The position numbers and the translations under genes were made by a program. From assembly GCA_009779925.1 (NCBI GenBank), contig WRAZ01000023.1, positions 1 to 34,332 of the forward strand: a stretch of 34,332 nt of DNA, read 5' to 3'. How positions within the stretch are numbered: position 1 is the first letter of the stretch; every line of letters starts with the position of its first letter. Origin of the DNA: Chitinivibrionia bacterium. Its GTDB lineage: Bacteria > Fibrobacterota > Chitinivibrionia > Chitinivibrionales > Chitinivibrionaceae. Below, piece by piece: positions 27,803-29,866 of the stretch. The notes beneath the pieces were generated by a model. The model saw only the letters and a program-made list of their open reading frames with translations, did not search any database and was not told the origin of the DNA.

Positions 27803-29704
27803 TTATTGAAAAACTCGCAAATGCGGAAAGCCGTTGTTTATTGTTGAATTTGTTCCCCAAATCGTTGTGAAATTCCAATTTACAAAAGTTTCACGGTCTT
27901 GCATTTGAACGGTGGTTATCGGCGTGCCTTTACCCGTGTCGCTTCGTTCGCTTGTTTCGGTGTTATAAAAAGAATTTACAACTCCTCCCGCACCGCCGTT
28001 ATTAACTCCTACTAATCCACCGAGATTGCCACTCCCTGTTATATTTCCTGTAGAAAAACTATTGATTATTCTGCCGTGAGTTCCATTTGTTCCCGTAATG
28101 CCACCAGTGGCAGGCGACCAATGAGACGTGCTTCCGGATACATTCCCAATTGCGTAAGTGTTTTCTATTCTTCCATCATTAAAACCCACCAATCCACCAG
28201 TTGAAGCGCCTGTTATAGTCCCCGTTCCTGCAACGGTTCCTGTAGAATATGAAAACGCAATTAAGCCACTACCTTCATTCCAGCCAACTAATCCGCCAAC
28301 ACTACTTGTCCCGTTTATGTTTGCTTCCGAATAACTGTTCTCAATTCTTCCGTTATTCCAACCGACCAAACCACCAGCACGGCTTGCAGTGCTTCTGATA
28401 AGCCCAAAAACATAACAATTGTTAATAGTACCAATGTTATATCCAGCCAATCCGCCAACAATACCTTCCCCTGATATATTAACATCAACAAGTCCGAGAT
28501 TTTTTACAATTCCCTCTGCTCCGATAAACCCAAATAATCCTTGATAATCATTTGAGCTGTTTATATCAATTCCTCTGATTACATTATTATTGCCGTCAAA
28601 TGTTCCCCTGAACGGACGATTATTTGCAGATAACGGAGCCCATCTTCCGATAGGCACCCAAACGCCCGACAACTGAATGTCGTTTGCAAGCGAAACTGTT
28701 CTGCCTAAGAAATTATTTCCTGCGTTTACTTGGTCTCTGAACGCCGCCAATTCTGCGGCGGTTGATATTGTAATACAATCCGTAAGTATCGGTCGCTTTT
28801 CGGAATGAGTGCAATTTTCTCTGGTGCAAATTCTTACTTCTTCGCCGTCTTTATCGCATTCGGGCGGTGTTGTTATTTCCCACAGACCAAATTCGTGAGT
28901 AAGCGCATTTATTACTTGTTCGCCGCTTGTTGCGCCGCAAATAGAACAAGTTCTCGCTCTCAAACCGGGCTCAGCGCAAGTAGGAGGCGTTATCACCTCT
29001 AAATTACCCCAAGTATGATTAGGGACAGGTATGCTTTCTGTTATAGTATGCTCGCAATTCGCTCTTTGGCAGGCTCTTGTTCTGCTTCCCGCTTCACCGC
29101 CGCAAATCGCGACTTTTGTTGTGTCCCACGCGCCTAAATCGTGAGCAAGTTCAGGTATATTTTCTGTTATTGAGTGTTCGCAATTCGCCCTTTGACAAGA
29201 CCTTGTTCTACTTCCTGTTTCACCGCAAACTGCAACTATTGTAGTATCCCACAAACCTAAATCGTGGCTTAACATCGGTATTTGCTGTTCGCCTGTTCTT
29301 GCTCCGCAATCAGAACAAACTCTCGCTCTCAATCCCGCTGTGGCGCAAGTTGCTACTGTTATTTCCGTTAAATCGCCGAAATTATGCCCTGTCGCTGCAA
29401 CTGGTCTATTTTCTCCGTAAGAACAATTTCCTCTTGCGCAAGTTCTGGCTTCTTCTCCTGCTGTCATACAAGTCGCGGGTGTTATTATTATCCAATCGCT
29501 TAAATTGTGTCCCAACGTCGCTGTCGGACGGGTTCTCGTTTCACTGCAAACACTGCATACACTTGTTTCTTCGCCGCCAACTAAACAAGTTGCCGCTCTT
29601 GTTTCAACCCATTCACCCCAAACGCATTCAGTGTGAGCATTATTATCGCTGTCATTTGAGCATCCGCCGATAAATATTATCGACATAATCATAAAAATTG
29701 CCAA
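27803..29704 (-). CDS. GLUG/Cys-rich-repeat lipoprotein, start uncertain
   Basis: The frame encodes a lipoprotein signal: KKIKLTTVILAIFMIMS, then IIFIGGC with the lipobox Cys. About seven Cys-rich repeats of about 42 residues follow (roughly 25-310; Cys pairs such as CSVC, CSDCG and CSICG), then about six GLUG motifs (roughly 380-610). It ends without the C-terminal domain of the two other GLUG proteins, which fits lipid anchoring. A TTG at 29704 is the nearest start codon, but it lies inside the signal peptide and has no ribosome site, so it cannot be the true start. The in-frame codons upstream run through a (GT)28 tract to a stop with no ATG. The ATG with a good site (29832) is out of frame at the present tract length. 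Confidence 0.75.
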   Translation of the reverse strand: MAIFMIMSIIFIGGCSNDSDNNAHTECVWGEWVETRAATCLVGGEETSVCSVCSETRTRPTATLGHNLSDWIIITPATCMTAGEEARTCARGNCSYGENRPVAATGHNFGDLTEITVATCATAGLRARVCSDCGARTGEQQIPMLSHDLGLWDTTIVAVCGETGSRTRSCQRANCEHSITENIPELAHDLGAWDTTKVAICGGEAGSRTRACQRANCEHTITESIPVPNHTWGNLEVITPPTCAEPGLRARTCSICGATSGEQVINALTHEFGLWEITTPPECDKDGEEVRICTRENCTHSEKRPILTDCITISTAAELAAFRDQVNAGNNFLGRTVSLANDIQLSGVWVPIGRWAPLSANNRPFRGTFDGNNNVIRGIDINSSNDYQGLFGFIGAEGIVKNLGLVDVNISGEGIVGGLAGYNIGTINNCYVFGLIRSTASRAGGLVGWNNGRIENSYSEANINGTSSVGGLVGWNEGSGLIAFSYSTGTVAGTGTITGASTGGLVGFNDGRIENTYAIGNVSGSTSHWSPATGGITGTNGTHGRIINSFSTGNITGSGNLGGLVGVNNGGAGGVVNSFYNTETSERSDTGKGTPITTVQMQDRETFVNWNFTTIWGTNSTINNGFPHLRVFQ

Positions 29705-29715
29705 AATGACTGTTG

Positions 29716-29832
29716 TTAATTTGATTTTTTTATAGGCTGAAAAGCCGCTTGTGTGTGTGTGTGTGTGTGTGTGTGTGTGTGTGTGTGTGTGTGTGTGTGT
29801 GTGTGTAAACTTCTTCTTGAAATCACTCTCAT
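29716..29832 (-). other. short leader frame through the GT tract (OFF-phase start of lipoprotein)
   Basis: An ATG at 29832, 8 nt after GGGGG, opens a frame starting MRVISRRSL, continuing as alternating His-Thr through the dinucleotide tract and stopping at TAA (29718-29716) after 38 residues. The distance from this ATG to the lipoprotein frame is 128 nt, two more than a multiple of three, so loss of one GT unit (or gain of two) would fuse it to the lipoprotein signal peptide. Confidence 0.6.
29751..29806. repeat. dinucleotide microsatellite (GT)28
   Basis: Twenty-eight perfect GT units lie between the candidate ATG and the signal peptide of the lipoprotein gene. Uninterrupted tracts of this length are rare in bacterial genomes outside contingency loci. 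The exact unit count in an assembled sequence may not be reliable. Confidence 0.97.
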
Positions 29833-29866
29833 TGTTAATGCCCCCTTTTTATATCTATATTTATAT

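Follow-up and report, generated by a model that had tools for sequence, protein, structure and literature searches.

The window analysed here is a stretch of 34,332 nucleotides (nt) of contig WRAZ01000023.1 from a Chitinivibrionia bacterium (assembly GCA_009779925.1), which we take to be a Fibrobacterota member from the termite gut, since termite-gut sampling is associated with related records. On its minus strand a long dinucleotide tract, (GT)n on one strand and (AC)n on the other, separates a start codon from the gene of a GLUG-motif lipoprotein. In our judgement the tract probably turns translation of the lipoprotein on and off by slipped-strand mispairing, and the assembly captured an OFF length. 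The features involved are listed in Table 1.

The tract extends over 57 nt (29806-29750 on the minus strand), which is 28.5 units without impurity and at 100% match, the repeat count being a consensus value of the draft assembly, which has 88 contigs. The initial annotation had rightly placed a pure repeat between an ATG and the lipoprotein signal peptide, but had given its length as 56 nt. When the window was shuffled 100 times with dinucleotide composition preserved, no shuffle contained even (GT)6, and we therefore regard this short repeat, whose unit is not a multiple of three, as beyond chance. Upstream of it, the minus-strand sequence confirms an ATG at 29832 with GGGGG 8 nt before it. 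As assembled, this ATG yields MRVISRRSL(HT)nQAAFQPIKKSN-stop, a product of 38 residues that is out of frame with the lipoprotein, so that the OFF state proposed at the outset is indeed what the assembly contains. Removal of one unit in silico produces a frame of 675 residues that reaches into the lipoprotein, as had been predicted for the loss of one GT, while addition of one unit results in a stop at 34 residues. The tract thus lies between the translation start and the gene body, and its length sets the frame.

Read through the tract, the lipoprotein frame is ...KGGINNESDFKKKF(TH)nTSGFSAYKKIKLTTVILAIFMIMSIIFIGGC; the minus-strand sequence directly 3' of (AC)28.5 is AGCGGCTTTTCAGCCTATAAAAAAATCAAATTA, followed by the signal peptide. 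The fused N-terminus had been expected to consist of His-Thr repeats before a Lys-rich start; the His-Thr repeats are there, but the further residues SGFSAY stand between them and the lysines. Also in agreement with the initial annotation, the lipoprotein frame lacks an ATG ahead of the tract, and a stop closes it shortly upstream. From the tract to the signal peptide there is no start codon that has a ribosome site. Ahead of the hydrophobic core, the signal peptide region likewise offers no start codon, and the earliest ATG, GTG or TTG past the tract in this frame, TTG 29704, lies within that core and lacks a ribosome site. Although out of phase with the ATG, the body is intact, with 633 open codons that include the GLUG match, the only Pfam match of the lipoprotein, which accordingly does not qualify as an autotransporter. 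Read by eye, YKKIKLTTVILAIFMIMSIIFIGGC suggests the positively charged n-region, hydrophobic core and lipobox Cys expected of a signal peptidase II substrate, and the n-region of an ON form would have approximately 42 residues.

In the mechanism that we propose, ribosomes would initiate at ATG 29832 and translate through the repeat. At one tract length in three the frame would continue into the lipoprotein signal peptide (ON), and at the other two it would meet a stop within about a dozen codons past the tract (OFF). Slipped-strand mispairing would alter the number of units, and hence the frame in which the body is read from the start. When ON, the signal peptide would carry the His-Thr stretch as a long extension at its N-terminus, and signal peptidase II should cut this off at the lipobox Cys; as the extension would be discarded together with the signal peptide, the mature lipoprotein would be the same at any ON length. 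Slippage in vivo, a resulting change in expression, and the export, lipidation and surface location of the product would all be expected if the tract works in this way.

The start of the window gene differs from that of its relatives. A six-frame protein search matched 91 places in the same genome, and GLUG-type proteins therefore constitute a large family there. Among approximately 20 of these paralogues with readable open frames, most begin at an ordinary ATG directly ahead of the signal peptide, and repeats at this point are absent from all of them. The closest same-genus match to the lipoprotein, L133 in genome G001, also starts normally (MKMKCLLLVIITVVLLAVFMGGC). The window gene is the only one of the GLUG genes read that lacks a normal start and relies on an ATG across a repeat.

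CA/GT tracts are found at the starts of other genes in this genome as well. Within 2.5 Mb, only four tracts reach at least 8 units, and each of them lies at the 5' end of a gene, in the first ~30 codons. At L031 (contig C12), ATG-CGGCTTGTGAAATCTTTGA-(AC)13-AGCGG... leads in frame (ON) into a glycosyltransferase family 2 protein (GT2, PF00535) with the predicted product MRLVKSLN-(TH)n-KRDLPLISVIVPVYN. At L059 (C39), ATG-AATATCTATAAAAT-(AC)8-TAAGACG... is likewise in frame (ON) with a secreted protein that has a weak M64 peptidase match, and in its product, MNIYKI-HTHTH-IRRICSSLSVKAILLLAVFAISLYAQ, the His-Thr run precedes the signal-peptide core. At L058 (C26), a polysaccharide deacetylase has a (GT)8 tract within the core of its signal peptide (ACVCVCAS). 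If the threshold is lowered to at least 5.5 units, nine places are found in 2.5 Mb, of which six fall in the first ~30 codons of genes, two inside genes and one in an intergenic region; the probability of at least six of nine in the first ~30 codons is ~1e-5, if such codons make up ~7.5% of the genome, a share that we estimated.

Across 40 genomes of the order we found four tracts that start with A and have at least 9.5 units, and two of the four belong to this genome. A pattern of ribosome site, ATG and (CA)7 or longer was found at seven loci in five of 168 Fibrobacterota genomes, three of the loci again being in this genome; the reversed pattern, searched as a control, gave 0 loci in the same 168 genomes. 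One of the seven, L142 (1509-1570; G018, same order but a different family), has AAAGGAG-ATG, (AC)9.5 and then, in another phase, a frame of ~498 codons with the signal-peptide-like start of a secreted protein. From its sequence, this locus looks like the same switch design caught OFF. The ATG/(CA)n design thus recurs but is rare. Because CA/GT tracts lie at gene starts, because two genes of this genome have them in frame and because one same-order locus has an OFF arrangement, we favour a switch over a chance microsatellite, and the genome-wide placement thereby supports the on/off reading from which we started.

Several side observations concern these loci. GT repeats of 5.5 to 8.5 units encode VCVCV-type signal-peptide cores at L058 (1500-1516), L060 (~1501-1513) and L065 (~1501-1513), the products being polysaccharide deacetylases and a lipoprotein. 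Short perfect hairpins with stems of 4-8 bp tend to follow CA tracts directly (window 29735-29749, L031, L059 and L142); this excess has a Fisher p of ~0.01 after the tracts and 0.87 before them, but it was noticed post hoc and is not used as support. Two of the seven pattern loci, L143 and L144 (minus strand, ~1505-1640), which come from two genomes in a single genus, have (CA)7, an 8-bp stem with the loop GAGT and a terminator-like hairpin, and are possibly a leader RNA element, while another, L140, has no convincing gene.

A gene in decay would provide a different explanation of the window tract: the original start before KKIKL would have been lost, the upstream ATG would be fortuitous, the tract would have expanded neutrally, and the gene would no longer be expressed. 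Indeed, the start that the paralogues and L133 lead one to expect before the Lys-rich segment is missing, the sequence there reading TAT AAA AAA, and the frame is OFF as assembled. We consider decay unlikely, however, as the 633 codons are open and show no other damage, a good ribosome site and ATG sit exactly upstream of the tract, and L031 and L059 share the layout in frame.

AutA/AutB and OipA provide known cases of repeats that directly follow a start codon and lie ahead of or within a signal peptide, and the architecture proposed for the switch is therefore a known one. In AutA/AutB, autotransporters of Neisseria and Haemophilus with AAGC repeats, a changed number of units gives an N-terminally extended open frame (PMC5118866). 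The likeness of the window gene (ATG, 8 codons, repeat, signal peptide) to these is one of architecture and not of homology, for their repeat is a tetranucleotide and their product an autotransporter, as opposed to a dinucleotide and a GLUG lipoprotein here, with no sequence relation shown. In most meningococcal strains autB is OFF while the remainder of the gene is intact (PMC5118866). In Helicobacter pylori oipA, CT dinucleotide repeats in the 5' part that codes for the signal peptide turn an outer membrane protein on and off by frame (PMC10564699). There the repeat is the signal peptide itself, whereas in the window it is an extension ahead of it; the GT tract of L058, with VCVCV in the hydrophobic core, is nearer to oipA than the window tract is. 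In a limited literature search, no paper turned up that describes phase variation by repeats in Chitinivibrionia or Fibrobacterota.

A second class of repeats in this genome follows a promoter-like module. The module (TTGAC...palindrome...AACGTATTTT) is a conserved stretch of ~85 bp that ends in TTGACanATACGTTGcgcaAAACGTATTTT and is followed by tandem repeats of differing units; copies were read in the window and at L028/L098, L099, L100, L101, L102, L105 and L106. The window copy precedes a (CTCTT) array, as do those on C18 and C15, and the other arrays are (CTTCGGT)14.9 on C49, (TCTCGCTG)10.9 on C11, (ACTTCGGG)n on C22 and C38 and (CATACAGG)9 on C44, the last three extending to the ends of their contigs. 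Where genes after these repeats could be read, the products are GLUG proteins in two cases, lipoproteins in two others and otherwise a small protein. No convincing copy of the module was found in four relatives of the same family. Repeats outside the pattern searches come from a sample of ~388 kb (~422 kb with the window) that was picked in part for GLUG genes and repeats and is thus not unbiased. The closest match among known systems is Haemophilus influenzae hmw1A/hmw2A, with 7-bp tandem repeats past the promoter, in the transcript leader (PMC8262952). The likeness is to this second class, to which the window pentamer (13473-13521) belongs, and not to the mechanism of the GT tract, which is preceded by an ATG with a ribosome site and so does not lie outside a coding frame as hmw-type repeats do. 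In contrast to hmw, units of 5, 7 and 8 nt here follow copies of one promoter-like module.

Since these other repeats do sit in leaders, one may ask whether the GT tract, too, is part of an untranslated leader and tunes the mRNA level or ribosome access by its length. Translation would then start at a non-standard codon, at TTG 29704 or at ATG 29692, and might do so through re-initiation once ribosomes have met the OFF-frame stop at 29716, which does lie ~12 nt ahead of TTG 29704. But neither of the two codons has a ribosome site, and a signal peptide begun there would be 10-14 residues long and lack positive charge, which makes tuning by leader length very unlikely. That the true genome has one fixed in-frame length and does not switch, the tract length being an assembly artefact, is highly improbable: the draft has 88 contigs and several other repeats lie at contig ends, but this tract is interior to its contig, its 57 nt fit inside a read, and in other bacteria pure CA tracts of this length are prone to slippage.

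Some points nevertheless weigh against the slipped-strand switch. The initial annotation had suggested comparing the tract in related genomes, but no orthologous tract was found 3' of the V-ATPase K gene in G001-G004, which carry a different region after K, and a search with the lipoprotein in four family members gave only weak matches, in G001 and without the tract. As the nearest relatives thus lack the lipoprotein gene at this locus, we infer switching from the arrangement described above. Moreover, both MutS and MutL are present in the genome. These proteins lower dinucleotide slippage in other bacteria, and the slippage rate is therefore not expected to be extreme. Their presence also speaks against missing mismatch repair as the reason for the long tracts. 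Furthermore, an ON form with so long an n-region would have to be competent for export, and the consensus length of a draft genome may differ from the commonest length in the population.

Taken together, the two classes of repeats raise the possibility, in our view a little short of probable, that this genome combines two switch designs in a multi-locus phase-variable repertoire. One design would be CA/GT fusions between a start codon and secreted or surface-modifying proteins; the other would be a reused module with interchangeable repeat leaders (CTCTT, CTTCGGT, TCTCGCTG, ACTTCGGG or CATACAGG) before GLUG proteins and lipoproteins. If true, the repertoire would sit in an uncultured gut symbiont lineage for which we found none described. 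Most known cases of multi-locus phase variation come from animal pathogens, possibly owing to database bias according to a 2025 review (PMC11868660). Several start-codon and leader tracts in a Fibrobacterota genome, apparently from the termite gut, would extend it to a lineage of insect symbionts and make the question testable on existing metagenome reads. Automatic annotation will misjudge such genes, either as truncated or by assigning a wrong start, such as TTG 29704 here.

Table 1. Positions in the window of the proposed switch, the lipoprotein gene and other features.
Feature	Position	Strand	Remarks
Ribosome-binding-like GGGGG (29845-29841), 8-nt spacer (cattaaca) and ATG (29832-29830)	29830..29845	-	
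Leader MRVISRRSL	29807..29832	-	8 codons after Met, preceding the repeat
(AC)28.5 / (GT)28.5 dinucleotide tract	29750..29806	-	Proposed length switch; codes for His-Thr repeats
Short frame of the assembled (OFF) state	29716..29832	-	38 residues; TAA at 29718-29716
Lipoprotein signal peptide region GFSAYKKIKLTTVILAIFMIMSIIFIGGC	29660..29743	-	Lipobox IGG-C, Cys codon 29662-29660; lipobox read by eye
Lipoprotein body, uninterrupted	27803..29704	-	GLUG-motif region (PF07581, E=2.5e-15) preceded by paired-Cys repeats
Hairpin, 17-bp stem	29866..29903	-	In the gap from the V-ATPase K gene to the lipoprotein start; not followed by a T-run
V-ATPase membrane subunit K	29916..30395	-	Upstream neighbour of the lipoprotein gene, same strand
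(CTCTT)9.8	13473..13521	-	Second switch candidate; past the promoter-like module, in the leader of a GLUG protein (10922-13360)

Two further repeats were noticed. At L119 (14179-14238), 12 units of an ACACA-type 5-nt repeat lie ~65 nt past the ATG of a short frame and are a possible further switch, and the 22 consecutive G at the end of a contig at L027 (2174-2195) are possibly a sequencing artefact. As for the surroundings of the lipoprotein gene, V-ATPase subunit K (29916-30395) is split from the rest of the V-ATPase operon (3619-10870) in the window; in G002-G004, K directly follows a long frame resembling subunit I.
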